A stretch of DNA of 64,000 nucleotides from Arenimonas caeni (GTDB taxonomy: Bacteria > Pseudomonadota > Gammaproteobacteria > Xanthomonadales > Xanthomonadaceae): assembly GCF_003024235.1 (NCBI RefSeq), contig NZ_KZ679095.1:1-64000 (forward strand). The letters run 5' to 3'. Position numbers and translations under genes: made by a program. The notes under the pieces are model-generated. The model was not told the origin of the DNA. It was given only the letters and a program-made list of their open reading frames with translations, and ran no database searches. Positions 54,407-59,737 of this stretch are shown in pieces (the stretch's first letter is position 1; the number at the start of each line of letters is the position of its first letter).

Positions 54407-55423
54407 GTGGCGCCAACCTCATTCCAGGGCTCCGTCACCTCCCCCGCGGAGGGTGACGAGGGCCTTCATCTGCCTTCACAGCTGGCCCCGGAAGCCTTCC
54501 GGGTGCTGGCGTCGGCGGGTGTGAGCCGGGCGGTGCTGCCGGGCGAGGAGCTGTTCCGGCGCGGTGAAGCGGCCCAGAGCATGTTCCTGATCGACACCGG
54601 CGAGGTGCGCCTGTCCTTCGACGAGGGCCTGGCCGACAAGCTGCTCGGCCCCGGGCAGTACTTCGGCGAGCTGGCCGTGTTCATCGGCCGCCACCAGCGC
54701 TTCGCCCGGGCCGTGGCCGAAACCCCAGGCGTGCTTTACGAAATCACCCAGGACGCCTTCCAGGCGCTGCTCGAGCGCGAGCCGGCGCAGGTGGCGCGCT
54801 TCATGCAGCGCAGCTTCGCCTACCTGGTGGCCGGCGAGCACCAGCTGGTGCAGAGCCTGCGCCGCCGCAACGAAGACCTGCTGCAGACCCTCGACACCCT
54901 GCGCCAGACCCGCAGCGAGCTCACCGTGGCCCAGCAGCTGGTGCGCAGCGACGACCTGACCGGCCTGGCCAACCGCCGCGGCCTGTACCGCTACCTGGAC
55001 GAACTGGGCCGGCAGCCGCTGGGCGGCCTGCGCCTGGCCCTGCTGCTGGTGGACGTGGACCACTTCAAGGGCATCAACGACCGCAGCGGCCACCTGGCCG
55101 GCGACGCCGCGCTGCGCGCGGTGGCCGAGGAGGTGCGCCGGATGGCGGGGCCGCTGGAGCTGCCCTGCCGCCTGGGCGGCGACGAATTCGCCCTGGTGCT
55201 GCGGGTGGCCGACGAAGGCGAGCTGGCCAACCGCGCCCTCGGCCTGCTGGCGGCGGTGCGCAGCCTGCGCCTGCCCAGCCTGCGCGAGCACCGCCTGAGC
55301 GTGAGCATCGGCGGCGCCTTCTGCGGCGATCCCGGTGGCTGGGCGGCCTGGTACAGCGAGGCCGACCGGGCCCTGTACGCCGCCAAGCGACAGGGCGGCG
55401 ACGCCTGGCGCCTGGACGAATAA
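54407..55423 (+). CDS. Cyclic-nucleotide-binding domain GGDEF protein (diguanylate cyclase)
   Basis: 338 residues. A cNMP-binding domain (about 30-145) with [26 protein letters not shown] and [17 protein letters not shown] precedes a coiled linker (145-178) and a GGDEF domain (179-338). The active site GGDEF is intact at 257-261 with metal Asp 216 in [13 protein letters not shown], so c-di-GMP synthesis is expected. The inhibitory RxxD site upstream of GGDEF is missing (GPLE instead). The start is a GTG with GGGA six bases upstream. It is followed by the class III cyclase-like gene on the same strand. Confidence 0.9.
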
Positions 55424-55487: not shown

Positions 55488-58121
55488 ATGGACGTGCAGG
55501 AACCCCGCACCCCCAGTCACCTCGATGCCCCGGTCGTCAGGCCGATGCTTCGCGCGGTGCTGGTGTGCGACATCGTCGAGTCCACCGCCCTGGTTGAAAA
55601 ACTGGGCGATGCGCGCGCGGCCGCCTTCATGCAGCGCCACGACCAGTTGATGCTGCAGGCCATGAAGCTGTGCCACGGCCAGCTGGTGGACAAGGCCGAC
55701 GGCGTGCTGGCCCTGTTCGAGCGGCCGATCCAGGCCCTGGATTTCGCCCTGCGCTACCAGCGCGGCTTGTACGAACTGGGCCAGGCCGAGGGCTTCCAGC
55801 TCAAGGCGCGCACCGGCATCCATGTCGGCGATGTGATGACCTGGGCCAACCACCCGCGCGACGTCGCGGCCGGCGCCAAGCCCTTCGAAGTCGAGGGCCT
55901 GGCCAAGCCGGTGGCCGCGCGCCTGATAACCCTGGCCCTGCCCGGGCAGATCCTGATGTCGGGCATGGCCCAGAACCTGGCGCAGCGCGCCGCCGGCGAG
56001 CTGGGCGAGCGCGCCGGGCGCCTGCGCTGGCTCATGCACGGGCGCTACCGGTTCAAGGGCGTGCCGGCACCGATGCTGGTGCACGAGGTGGGCGAGCCGG
56101 GCATCGCGCCGCTGCGCCCTCCGGACTCGGGCCCCAAGGGCTGGCGCGAGGTGCCGCTGTGGCGGCGGCCGCCGGTGCTGGCGGCCGAAGCGATGCTGCT
56201 GGTGGCCCTGGCCGGCGCCGTGCTGTGGTCCACCTTCCGCAGCGAGCCGGCCATCGCCTTCGCCGAGCGCGACTGGGTGGTGGTGGCCGACCTGCAGAAC
56301 CGCACCGGCGAAATCATGTTCGACGACGCCCTCGACACCGCACTGCGGGTGGGCCTGGAGCAGTCGCAGTACGTCAACCTCTACAGCGACCTGCAGGTCG
56401 ACCGCGCCCTGCAGCGCATGCAGCGGCCGGGCCAGCCGCTCGACCGCCAGCTGGCCACCGAGCTGGCCCTGCGCGAGGGCGCGCGCGCCGTCATCCTGCC
56501 CACCATCGCCCAGGTCGGCGGCGTGATCCGCGTCAGCCTGGAGGTCATCGACCCCAAGACCGGCGTCACCGTCTACAGCGAAAGCGCCGATGGCCGCGGC
56601 GTCGAAAGCGTGCTGCCCTCGCTCGACACCGCCCTGGCCGACGTGCGTGGCCGGCTGGGCGAAACCATGGCGGCGGTGTCGGCCGACCGGGTGCCGCTGG
56701 AGCAGGCGACCACGCCGAACATCGAGGCGCTGCGGGCGTTTTCGCTCGGCACGACGGCGCGCTACAAGGGCCAGGCCGGCGATGCCGAGGCCTTGTTCCG
56801 GGAAGCCGTGCGCCTGGATCCGGGCTTCGCCATGGCGTGGCTGCGGCTGGCGTTCCTGCGTTACGTCGAGGGTGACGAGGCCGGCACGCGCGAGTATCTC
56901 GCCCAGGCCCAGGCCCACCGCGACCGGCTGACCCGTCGTGAACTGCTTTTCATGGAAGGCGCCGAAGCCACGCTCGACGACGCGCCGCGGGCCGTGGAGC
57001 GCCTCCGGCTGCTGGCGTCGCTATACCCGGATGACTATCGCGGCCGCTACAACGCCGCGTTTTTCGCTCATTTCGACCTGCTGCGCAGCGAACAGGTCGC
57101 CGAGGTCATGGCAGGCACCGATGTACCCCAGAATCCCCAGCGTCCGTCGGCGGTCTACATGATCGCCGCGGCCGAACTGGCGAAGGGCGATGCCCCCGCC
57201 GCCATCGCGCTTTTTGAAAAGTCGCGCACGCTCGGCATGCGCGGTAGCCTGCGCGAACTCATCGATGCCCACGCGTCGCTGCGCCAGTACGACCAGGCCC
57301 GGCGCGTGGCCGGGCAGCAAACCGCGGTGGGACTGCCTGCGCAGGACCTGGAAAGCCGCACCTTCGAGGCCAGCCTGCCGCTGGACCAGGGTGACTGGCG
57401 CGGTGCCCGGTCCGCACTGGTCGTGCTCAAGGTCGATGGCATCGAAGCCGGGGCCACCGCCTTCGCGCTGGGCAAGATCGACCTGATGGCGCTGTCGCTG
57501 CGCGCCTACGCGCCGGATGCAGCGTTTTCCGCCGACCTGCACGCCTGGGTCGAGGCCGAGAAGGTGGCCTTTGCCTCGTCGAACGCGATGAACCGGCGCG
57601 AGTACATCTTCCGGCTGCTGGCCGGCGCCTGGATGGCGGCCCATGTCGGCGAGGTCGATTACGCCCGCACCCTGCTGGCGGTCGTGGCCGACGATCCGCA
57701 GACGCGCGTGTACCCGTTCAATGCCTCGATGGCGCGCGTGGTCGAGGCCGAGATCGCGCTGGCCGAAGGGCGGGCCCCCGATGCCATTGCGCGCCTGGCG
57801 GGCGATCCCGGGCAGGGTGGCGACATCTACTTCAGCAAGGCGGTGCTGATGCGCGCGCTGGTCGCCGCCGGCGACCGCAAGCAGGCATCGCGCGTGGCCA
57901 GCTGGCTTGCGGAAAACCGGGCCGTCGCATTCGGCGAGCCCACCTACACCCGCGGCTGGCAGCTGGCCAACGTGGCTGAAAGCAACCTCGCCCTGCGCGC
58001 CATGGCGCGCCTGGCGGAGCCGGGGTCCGCGGAGGCCGCTGAAGCCAGCGAGGCCTTCGCCAATGCCTGGCCCGGGGCGGGGGATAGCGCCGAGGTCGCG
58101 CGGCGGGACGCCGCGCTCTGA
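55488..58121 (+). CDS. Putative peptide-modification-system cyclase (class III cyclase domain plus TPR)
   Basis: 877 residues. An N-terminal class III nucleotide-cyclase domain (about 20-205) keeps both metal-binding aspartates: D28 in CDIVEST and D71 in KADGV. The usual Asn before the AAR motif is replaced by Pro (AKPVAARL, 139-146), so activity is uncertain. One membrane helix (229-248) follows, then a strand-rich domain (about 260-370) and TPR-type helical repeats to the C-terminus. This build matches the family I recall as TIGR04510, found beside modified-peptide genes. The precursor peptide and dehydrogenase genes follow directly. Confidence 0.8.
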   Translation: MDVQEPRTPSHLDAPVVRPMLRAVLVCDIVESTALVEKLGDARAAAFMQRHDQLMLQAMKLCHGQLVDKADGVLALFERPIQALDFALRYQRGLYELGQAEGFQLKARTGIHVGDVMTWANHPRDVAAGAKPFEVEGLAKPVAARLITLALPGQILMSGMAQNLAQRAAGELGERAGRLRWLMHGRYRFKGVPAPMLVHEVGEPGIAPLRPPDSGPKGWREVPLWRRPPVLAAEAMLLVALAGAVLWSTFRSEPAIAFAERDWVVVADLQNRTGEIMFDDALDTALRVGLEQSQYVNLYSDLQVDRALQRMQRPGQPLDRQLATELALREGARAVILPTIAQVGGVIRVSLEVIDPKTGVTVYSESADGRGVESVLPSLDTALADVRGRLGETMAAVSADRVPLEQATTPNIEALRAFSLGTTARYKGQAGDAEALFREAVRLDPGFAMAWLRLAFLRYVEGDEAGTREYLAQAQAHRDRLTRRELLFMEGAEATLDDAPRAVERLRLLASLYPDDYRGRYNAAFFAHFDLLRSEQVAEVMAGTDVPQNPQRPSAVYMIAAAELAKGDAPAAIALFEKSRTLGMRGSLRELIDAHASLRQYDQARRVAGQQTAVGLPAQDLESRTFEASLPLDQGDWRGARSALVVLKVDGIEAGATAFALGKIDLMALSLRAYAPDAAFSADLHAWVEAEKVAFASSNAMNRREYIFRLLAGAWMAAHVGEVDYARTLLAVVADDPQTRVYPFNASMARVVEAEIALAEGRAPDAIARLAGDPGQGGDIYFSKAVLMRALVAAGDRKQASRVASWLAENRAVAFGEPTYTRGWQLANVAESNLALRAMARLAEPGSAEAAEASEAFANAWPGAGDSAEVARRDAAL

Positions 58122-58151
58122 CGCTCCCCTCTCGTGCGCCCGGGCTTCGGC

Positions 58152-58421
58152 TTATTCGGGCAGGTGGAAGTTGATCGGCTCGAACGGGACCCGGGAAGCG
58201 AGCAAACGCTGGCGGATGACGGCGCGCGATTTCTGGAACGCTTCCTTCCGCGCCAGGCGGGTGATCGGCGCTTCCGGCAGACCGTCGGTGGCCGGGTCGT
58301 CCGTGTTCAGCGAGACGGTCGCGGCCTTCGGGTTGGCCATGAAGGACGTGCGGAAGGCGTCGTCGCCGCCGAGCTTGTCCAGCAGCGCGTCGACGGTGCG
58401 CTCGGAGAGTTGTTTGGACAC
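58152..58421 (-). CDS. Putative NHLP-related modified (RiPP-like) precursor peptide
   Basis: 89 residues. The N-terminal part, TVDALLDKLGGDDAFRTSFMANPKAA, resembles the nitrile-hydratase-like leader (LL.KL..D..FR..F..NP.AA). The C-terminal part ends VPFEPINFHLPE and contains no Cys anywhere; Ser and Thr are the only likely heterocyclisation or dehydration residues. The GTG start is supported by AGGGGA seven bases upstream. The gene is on the minus strand between two plus-strand genes for a cyclase-like protein and a SagB-like dehydrogenase. It matches the family I recall as TIGR04509. Confidence 0.75.
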   Translation of the reverse strand: MSKQLSERTVDALLDKLGGDDAFRTSFMANPKAATVSLNTDDPATDGLPEAPITRLARKEAFQKSRAVIRQRLLASRVPFEPINFHLPE

Positions 58422-58540
58422 GCGTGATTCCCCTGGGTGGGCACCAATGGGTGCCGGCAGAGTCTAGCGGCTGTCGCGCGGGCTTGTCAGGGGATGGGCG
58501 CAGCGGTCAGGCTCGCCGGGCCGGAACACAAGGACCCGAC

Positions 58541-59737
58541 ATGCAGCTCAGGCGATGCGCCCACCTGGTGGTGGCGCTGGACGACGAACCACGCTTCGAC
58601 TTCAACGACCTGCTGGCGGGCGGCGACGGCCTGGCCCGGCAAGCGCGCTGGCTGGCCCAGGCACCGCACCTGCCCGAGGCGGTGCCGGTGACGCTGGCGC
58701 AACTGGCGGTACTCGAGGCGGTCGGCGCCGAGGCGTGGGCGCCCCGCGCCGAACTGGAGGAGCGCTTTGGTGCGCCGGTCATCGCGGACCTGCTCGATGG
58801 CGGTTTGCTGTTGTCCTCGGCCGATGCCGTGTCGCCCGTCGCCGCTGCCGACCAGTCCGCGCGCGAACTGGCCTGGTGGCCGCCTGCGCTGCTGGCGCAG
58901 GCGCAGGGCGCCTGGCGCGGCGTGGACATCGAGGCGCGTGAAGCGCAGGGCCTGCGCCCCAGTGCCCGCGAGCTGGTCGAGAGTTTCGGCGCCGCGCCGA
59001 CTCCGGCGCCGCGAAAGCGGACCGCCGCCGAGCGGGTCGCGCTCGCGCCGGCGCGCCAGGCGGCGTTCGACGAGCTGCTGCAGGCGCGCCGCACCTGCCG
59101 CAACTTCGACCCCGCCGCCACGCTCGACGCCCAGCGCTTCGCGACCATGATGCGCCGGACCTGGGGTGCGCTGGGCACGCACGAGCTCGCGCCCGGCGCG
59201 GTGGTGGTCAAGAAGACCAGCCCGGCCGGCGGCGGCATGCACGCGGTCGAGGCCTATGCCCTGGTGCAGCGGGTCGAAGGCCTGTCGCCCGGGCTCTACC
59301 ACTACCTGCCGATGGAACACGCGCTCGAGCCGCTGCAGGCCATGGCGGCCGAAGAGGCTGCCGGCTGGGCGCATCGTTTCGTCGCCGGCCAGGCCTGGTT
59401 CCGTGATGCGCCGGTGCTGGTGGTGATGGTGGCGCGCTTCGACCGGTTGTTCTGGAAGTACCGCCGCCACGCCAAGGCCTGGCGCGTGGTGCACCTGGAC
59501 GTGGGCCACCTCTCGCAGACGATGTACCTGTCGGCCACCGAGCTGGGCCTGGGCGCCTTCGTCACCGCGGCCATCAACGACGGCGAGATCGGCGAGCTGC
59601 TGGGCCTGCCGCCGCTTCGCGAGGGCGTGATCGCCCTGGTCGGCTTCGGGCCGCGTGCGGCGACGATGACGCATCGCGAACTGGTCGACCTCGACCCGGT
59701 GCCGGCCGGCGCGCGCCAGCCGCCGGGCGCGCCCTAG
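58541..59737 (+). CDS. Putative peptide maturation dehydrogenase (SagB/ThcOx-like)
   Basis: 398 residues. An N-terminal domain of about 175 residues with no clear family precedes a nitroreductase-type FMN domain (about 178-390): ARRTCRNFD (182-190), KKTSPAGGGMHAVEAY (224-239), and LGLGAFVTAAINDGEIGELLGLPP near the end. SagB-like enzymes oxidise azolines to azoles in modified peptides. The pairing with the precursor peptide, as in the family I recall as TIGR04511, suggests peptide maturation. AAGGAC lies before ATG 58541. The stop shares bases with the convergent GFA gene. Confidence 0.82.
   Translation: MQLRRCAHLVVALDDEPRFDFNDLLAGGDGLARQARWLAQAPHLPEAVPVTLAQLAVLEAVGAEAWAPRAELEERFGAPVIADLLDGGLLLSSADAVSPVAAADQSARELAWWPPALLAQAQGAWRGVDIEAREAQGLRPSARELVESFGAAPTPAPRKRTAAERVALAPARQAAFDELLQARRTCRNFDPAATLDAQRFATMMRRTWGALGTHELAPGAVVVKKTSPAGGGMHAVEAYALVQRVEGLSPGLYHYLPMEHALEPLQAMAAEEAAGWAHRFVAGQAWFRDAPVLVVMVARFDRLFWKYRRHAKAWRVVHLDVGHLSQTMYLSATELGLGAFVTAAINDGEIGELLGLPPLREGVIALVGFGPRAATMTHRELVDLDPVPAGARQPPGAP

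Follow-up and report, generated by a model that had tools for sequence, protein, structure and literature searches.

A four-gene locus of Arenimonas caeni placing a RiPP precursor-like peptide beside a putative cGMP and c-di-GMP signalling pair

Why should a nucleotide cyclase lie beside the genes of a putative peptide modification system? The question is raised by a locus of Arenimonas caeni (assembly GCF_003024235.1) in the window, that is, the whole stretch of 64,000 nucleotides analysed here (contig NZ_KZ679095.1, positions 1 to 64,000). Positions 55488-59737 hold exactly three genes, which encode a class III nucleotide cyclase-tetratricopeptide repeat (TPR) protein, a small peptide and a SagB-like dehydrogenase. 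The initial annotation described them as a three-gene cassette of the type that makes ribosomally synthesised and post-translationally modified peptides (RiPPs). The three genes are real, but a fourth member had been overlooked: a CRP-GGDEF gene (54407..55423, plus strand) lies 64 bp upstream of the cyclase gene on the same strand, and the unit has four genes. These four are inherited together and very probably act together. We propose, in a judgement that is evenly balanced, that the locus is a peptide-linked cyclic GMP (cGMP)/cyclic di-GMP (c-di-GMP) signalling module in which the peptide product is the input to the cyclase.

The four genes and their inheritance

The cyclase-TPR protein (877 amino acids (aa); 55488..58121, plus strand) matches TIGR04510 at 840.5 bits against a cut-off of 400, the peptide (89 aa; 58152..58421, minus strand) matches TIGR04509 at 53.3 bits (cut-off 34) and the dehydrogenase (58541..59737, plus strand, the ATG at 58541 being its likely start) matches TIGR04511 at 460 bits (cut-off 240). 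This profile search bears out the earlier assignment of the three proteins to these NCBIfam families. The families share the name “putative peptide modification system” and the adjacency seen here; in contrast to the present locus, that name includes neither CRP-GGDEF nor signalling. The dehydrogenase is also above the cut-off of the SagB model TIGR03605 (111.5 vs 78.4 bits) and has a nitroreductase domain (~aa 181-370; PF00881, 81.1 bits). The CRP-GGDEF protein consists of a cyclic nucleotide monophosphate (cNMP)-binding domain (~aa 42-124; PF00027, 63.7 bits) and a GGDEF diguanylate cyclase domain (~aa 181-331; PF00990, 109.1 bits), and matches PDB 5h5o.

In a set of 100 genomes, comprising this one and 99 relatives, the peptide is found in 51, above its cut-off in each. 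The cyclase passes its cut-off in 50 of these and is in pieces in the other (G037); the dehydrogenase passes in 48 and is partial, at the same place, in the remaining three, where the gene is either in pieces (G003) or close to contig ends (G033, G050). Of the 51 cassette genomes, 50 have a CRP-GGDEF match at E < 1e-60; the other 49 genomes have none, and they also have no peptide match and no dehydrogenase or cyclase above cut-off. The query for the CRP-GGDEF gene was the L050 protein (E 1e-30), and at most 21 first-look candidates were scored per genome; in G059, the sole cassette genome with no match, 21 of 86 candidates were scored, so the gene was possibly missed.

More distant relatives do occur in the genomes with no cassette. 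Sub-cut-off dehydrogenase-family matches are present in five of the 49 (G061, G062, G072, G076 and G079; best 96.9 bits), and the stretches fetched from G062 and G076 hold a SagB relative of 26-33% identity alone, the other three genes being absent. Most have sub-cut-off cyclase-family matches, mainly over the TPR part, and some cyclase-family match at E 0.001 is found in 97 of the 100 genomes. A CRP-GGDEF-like gene (G086:C1:61279-62220; 39% identity, E 1.7e-49) was seen in one cassette-free genome and a partial one (E 1.3e-31) in another, G038.

The expectation that the three genes would adjoin in related genomes was also upheld by this comparison. Counting one peptide per genome, the CRP-GGDEF gene lies at most 600 bp upstream of the cyclase gene on the same strand in 47 of the 51 cassette genomes and elsewhere in the genome in three more, while the peptide gene is convergent with the cyclase gene in 46 and divergent from the dehydrogenase gene in 44. 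In five genomes (G031, G040, G044, G057 and G088) the dehydrogenase gene is followed by the peptide gene in the same direction, a layout that looks like an operon, and in G059 one peptide lies upstream of the dehydrogenase on a shared strand. The gene maps of relatives rely on a simple gene caller, which missed some peptides and small genes.

The usual site of the cassette is between aceBA and comM/glnK, although other contexts occur, for example in G070. By tblastn, none of the four genes lies between aceA and comM in 9 of the 16 family genomes that have no cassette; the other seven were left out, having aceA and comM on separate contigs or distant from each other, or aceA not found. The aceA-comM gap of cassette-free G052 is ~160 bp, and two cassette-free members of the same genus retain the GFA gene and also contain other small genes, the four cassette genes being absent. 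Three further families of the order also have the block. A wider search of 369 genomes of the class found TIGR04511 in five (E 1e-40), all within this order; among 299 genomes of the phylum, TIGR04510 was found in the same five (E 1e-80). A Rhizobium locus (L113) has a 39% SagB relative and no cyclase match. Plasmid-borne spread was considered and rejected, there being a single distant SagB match at E 1e-20. The A. caeni dehydrogenase is 80% identical to the SagB of Arenimonas sp. SCN 70-307.

Some loci depart from the single cassette. In the expanded cassette of G048 (L043, L044; C2:336001-366000) TIGR04509 matches nine times, one of the copies having an internal stop, and the dehydrogenase five times, once in part; there is one full-length cyclase and one broken cyclase fragment, and the CRP-GGDEF gene is ~180 kb away. 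A Lysobacteraceae metagenome-assembled genome carries a tandem pair of cyclase-peptide-dehydrogenase cassettes (L111:615-9179). G059 has two cassettes of differing layout (L084:6758-16306), and at the peptide position of the first is an 88-aa gene that is not among the TIGR04509 search matches. At the G003 and G037 loci (L093, L092) the cyclase and dehydrogenase genes are fragmented and the peptide is intact, which reflects either assembly error or decay.

The cyclase and its CRP-GGDEF partner

The earlier statement that no product or reaction was known is true of the peptide; for the cyclase family a reaction has been described. XC_0250 of Xanthomonas campestris, a class III cyclase of 886 aa that contains TPRs, makes cGMP and is inactive on ATP; the linked XC_0249, which has cNMP and GGDEF domains, binds cGMP, upon which c-di-GMP synthesis rises, and mutation of either gene reduces both biofilm and virulence (PMC3770947). 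The TPR part of XC_0250 was termed uncharacterized in function in a 2019 review (PMC8042644). The cyclase had been thought a very unusual partner for a RiPP pathway; it is indeed present, but since it falls in the family of XC_0250, a proven guanylate cyclase, its presence indicates signalling rather than an odd enzyme of peptide chemistry.

Likeness to XC_0250 was judged from the published residue numbers and PDB 5h5o rather than from the XC_0250 sequence. PDB 5h5o we infer to be XC_0249, for which the text of PMC3770947 gives the code 4KG1. At locus L060 the cyclase has all six residues tested in PMC3770947 at identical positions, and the CRP-GGDEF protein shares 93.7% identity with PDB 5h5o across 126 residues, the published contact residues being in register. 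The cyclase of G043, a probable Xanthomonas, is 830 aa and so shorter than XC_0250. In the Arenimonas protein the predicted order is cyclase domain (~aa 20-200), membrane helix (230-248), alpha/beta part (256-400) and TPR superhelix (410-871); a cyclase domain with metal-site Asp followed by a TPR part is the XC_0250-type architecture. It keeps D28, D41, D71, A150 and A161, with L73 replaced by Val and L157 by Met. In an alignment with the cyclase Ma1120, D28 and D71 each fall opposite an Asp. By that alignment D28 (55569-55571) is the first metal-site Asp; PMC3770947 names D41, and both are conserved in the family (49 cyclases, 3 of them lacking the N-terminal columns). Family and residues together suggest that the Arenimonas cyclase is an XC_0250-like guanylate cyclase. 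In the AlphaFold model residues 113-229 of the cyclase domain are of low confidence, and no catalytic geometry is claimed.

The CRP-GGDEF protein resembles XC_0249 as an effector. It keeps the GGDEF motif, and the contact residues F73, E90, H98 and E146 are present in it and in all 30 of the aligned proteins found by the gene caller. However, N145 of the N145-E146 diad is Gly (among the 30: N in 7, G in 16, S in 7); therefore the cGMP selectivity of the Arenimonas protein is not established and we do not count it as a proven member of the XC_0249 type. Taken as a pair, the two proteins share with XC_0250/XC_0249 (PMC3770947) the cyclase-TPR architecture, the cNMP-GGDEF partner, the gene linkage, the catalytic residues and most of the ligand-contact residues. 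They differ at N145, and in that the published main text on the Xanthomonas pair describes no peptide.

The peptide and the dehydrogenase

Purifying selection acts on the reading frame of the peptide, with dN < dS in all 7 pairs and dN/dS of 0.40-0.50 against four related loci. Upstream of it on the minus strand is a putative sigma-70-like promoter (58461..58490) with a -35 element CTGACA (58490-58485), an 18-base spacer and a -10 element TAGACT (58466-58461), which may act as the promoter of the peptide gene. Across 12 intergenic regions an RBS-like CCAGGGG is conserved in 10, and the promoter-related 7-mers AGTCTAG and TTGTCAG occur in 6 and 5, these being plain counts.

A classic NHLP precursor has a Gly-Gly cleavage site, a C-terminus rich in heterocyclizable residues and an ABC exporter with a peptidase (PMC2887384). 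The Arenimonas peptide has an NHLP-type leader and a variable C-terminus ending in PFEPINFHLPE, and it is not a classic precursor of this kind (TIGR03793). It has no TIGR03793 match at E 0.01 (8 of 15 relatives match), no GG within its last 45 residues, and one Ser with no Cys or Thr in its last 24; no C39 peptidase was found in the genome. Among 69 sequences longer than 60 aa, a set that includes two from G044 below the family cut-off and leaves out the shorter interrupted G048 copy, GG occurs within the last 45 residues in five, at least some Cys, Ser or Thr within the last 20 in 67, and a signal-peptide-like stretch, by a crude hydropathy test, in none. The C-termini are highly variable. 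A single peptide is present in 41 of the 51 cassette genomes. In 44 of the 69 a Cys stands a few residues before a LASK-like motif in the middle of the peptide, with a spacing of five in 28; randomly placed Cys gave this pattern in a mean of 14.4 and a maximum of 27 peptides over 200 trials. Cys as the general substrate was rejected, as the Arenimonas peptide and its nearest relatives lack the Cys-LASK pattern.

K306 and Y307 of the dehydrogenase (Lys306-Tyr307) are invariant in the 17 dehydrogenases aligned and form the Lys-Tyr motif of SagB-type dehydrogenases (PMC11055893). With this motif and the SagB domain the protein is a SagB-type flavin mononucleotide (FMN) dehydrogenase. Its modelled catalytic domain is of low confidence, and again no catalytic geometry is claimed.

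The model of the N-terminus (aa 1-104) matches the folds of RiPP enzymes in VIA-align, including NisB, MccB and TbtB, and the matched parts of these and others we take to be recognition domains. The N-terminus is thus predicted to be RRE-like, a PqqD-like winged helix that would bind a leader, and this prediction favours the RiPP-type reading of the initial annotation. Also as stated there, no protease, cyclodehydratase or exporter gene adjoins the locus. YcaO (PF02624) was found neither in this genome nor in 48 other cassette genomes, and is present in G041 and G048. Azole formation in A. caeni is unlikely because no YcaO was found in its genome. Most likely SagB oxidises the peptide alone, with no YcaO partner, and the chemistry is most likely a Calpha-Cbeta or similar two-electron oxidation.

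Two known systems may be set beside this arm. With the TOMM pathways (microcin B17, streptolysin S, ThcOx/CyaGox) it shares the SagB-type dehydrogenase, the Lys-Tyr motif and the predicted RRE-like domain, and it differs from them in the undetected YcaO and in the composition of the peptide end. The Os1348-Os1351 cluster of Pseudomonas sp. Os17 is the nearest relative that we found for the peptide arm: it has an NHLP-clan protein and a SagB-type protein, with no sagC or sagD reported in the account of the cluster. Unlike the Arenimonas locus it has acetyltransferase and peptidase-like genes, is linked to antibiotic activity, and has no cyclase named in that account (PMC7726476). The Arenimonas peptide matches the Os1348 domain weakly, at 19.6 bits and below the cut-off of 40.

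A proposed route from peptide to cyclase

The steps that would join the two arms are as follows. The RRE-like domain of the SagB-like enzyme would bind the NHLP-type leader, and FMN-dependent oxidation of the peptide, with no YcaO partner, would follow; this oxidation is supported by computation. The trimmed product would then be the input of the membrane cyclase, probably by way of the TPR superhelix outside the cytoplasmic membrane. In the cell the cyclase would produce cGMP, and cGMP on the cNMP domain of the CRP-GGDEF protein would raise c-di-GMP and so switch lifestyle genes, biofilm in the case of Xanthomonas. The last two steps have been shown by others for the relatives XC_0250 and XC_0249 and are carried over here by analogy; the trimmed peptide as input, and its site of action, we infer.

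By hydropathy, 39 of 44 proteins have the positive flank of the membrane helix facing the cyclase domain, counting from the first hydrophobic segment (of 45 proteins, seven had two segments, one three and one none). Therefore the TPR part should lie outside the cytoplasmic membrane. This half of the protein evolves fast: among 16 proteins of the genus its identity is 37-40%, and that of the cyclase domain 76%. The superhelix itself rests on the AlphaFold model and on TPR fold matches in VIA-align, where NprR and Rap rank no higher than APC/C and other eukaryotic TPR proteins. The RRNPP receptors, to which NprR and Rap belong, have the TPR fold alone in common with the cyclase; they are cytoplasmic and have different outputs, and unrelated eukaryotic proteins match equally well.

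Whether the peptide and the TPR part have evolved together is the weakest link in the proposal. Whole-peptide tree distances track TPR distances beyond those of other domains, which is moderate support, and a first test of the peptide C-terminus against the TPR part gave 0.64 over 35 loci, in a set that included truncated cyclases. Other results are less favourable. When ranks were used and truncated cyclases removed, the strong C-terminal signal did not hold robustly, being weak or missing in two sets out of three; within the genus (14 loci) the value was 0.37 for the TPR part compared to 0.60 for the alpha/beta part; and with whole-peptide distances the alpha/beta part also gave 0.19 (p 0.026). 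The co-evolution evidence is thus mixed, and suggestive only. That the dehydrogenase modifies the peptide we consider likely, and no more than that because in the same genus-only set the signal between leader and dehydrogenase is not significant (0.20, p 0.12). Finally, the Fisher values of co-occurrence are not independent evidence, because the genes could be lost together through single deletions.

This last point bears on the simplest alternative, that the peptide-dehydrogenase and cyclase-CRP-GGDEF genes are independent pairs held by linkage. The CRP-GGDEF gene adjoins the cyclase gene in 47 of 51 genomes and the peptide gene mostly lies between those of the cyclase and dehydrogenase, and from such contiguity joint loss by single deletions would be expected. 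However, at the thresholds used none of the 100 genomes holds one pair without the other, three genomes with CRP-GGDEF elsewhere still retain all four, and the block recurs in the further families of the order and in the different context of G070; shared position as the whole explanation is therefore improbable. Alternatively the peptide may be the output rather than the input, with the cGMP/c-di-GMP arm governing how a RiPP directed at other cells, such as an antimicrobial, is made or released. The dedicated promoter-like element and the variable C-termini would both fit, as would the Os17 small protein and SagB-type protein, which, with no sagC or sagD, are tied to antibiotic activity (PMC7726476). 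We nevertheless consider this unlikely: no exporter- or immunity-like neighbour recurs in the gene maps (in which most neighbours are unannotated), most of the cassette genomes carry one peptide only, and the word “peptide” is absent from the main text of PMC3770947, its transcript tables lying outside that text.

A modified peptide could also be retained in the cell, with no export, and act there on the cyclase or the CRP-GGDEF protein as an inhibitor or small regulatory subunit. Although the lack of signal-peptide-like stretches, the rarity of GG and the undetected C39 peptidase are what such a role would predict, the TPR part is predicted to be outside the membrane and a variable C-terminus would be unusual for a fixed internal subunit, and we hold this to be quite unlikely. 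Anti-phage defence of the Pycsar type, where infection raises a cyclic nucleotide to which a cNMP-binding effector responds, is hardly credible: the cNMP domain of the CRP-GGDEF protein gives weak matches to Pycsar models, the best at 31.6 bits, but the effector is a diguanylate cyclase, the usual site by aceBA and comM is chromosomal, and a defence function was rejected on the lack of any PADLOC defence model matching the cyclase at E <= 0.01.

The peptide-input module could, more tentatively, be extended to a counterpart of the receptor guanylate cyclases of peptide hormones, in which a SagB-oxidised ribosomal peptide is released, sensed by periplasmic TPRs and converted via cGMP into the output of a dedicated c-di-GMP synthase; this extension is possible rather than probable. 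In the open-licence literature, most subscription papers lying outside the search, we found no paper that connects the cGMP pathway with the peptide system, and none that carries the accessions TIGR04509, TIGR04510 or TIGR04511 or a printed function for them. Since 2013 the cGMP of Xanthomonas has been attributed to the XC_0250 cyclase. Should the four genes form a single system, the input so far missing from a biofilm-controlling bacterial cGMP pathway would be a defined peptide, a RiPP family would acquire a signalling role, and SagB-type peptide oxidation with no cyclodehydratase would have an example. In the receptor-cyclase extension, variable tails and variable TPR sensors would make private signal-receptor pairs across the Lysobacterales, with enlarged peptide sets such as that of G048 (nine peptide matches to one full-length cyclase) as signal repertoires, and a modified peptide controlling a cGMP signal may parallel the peptide hormones of animals.

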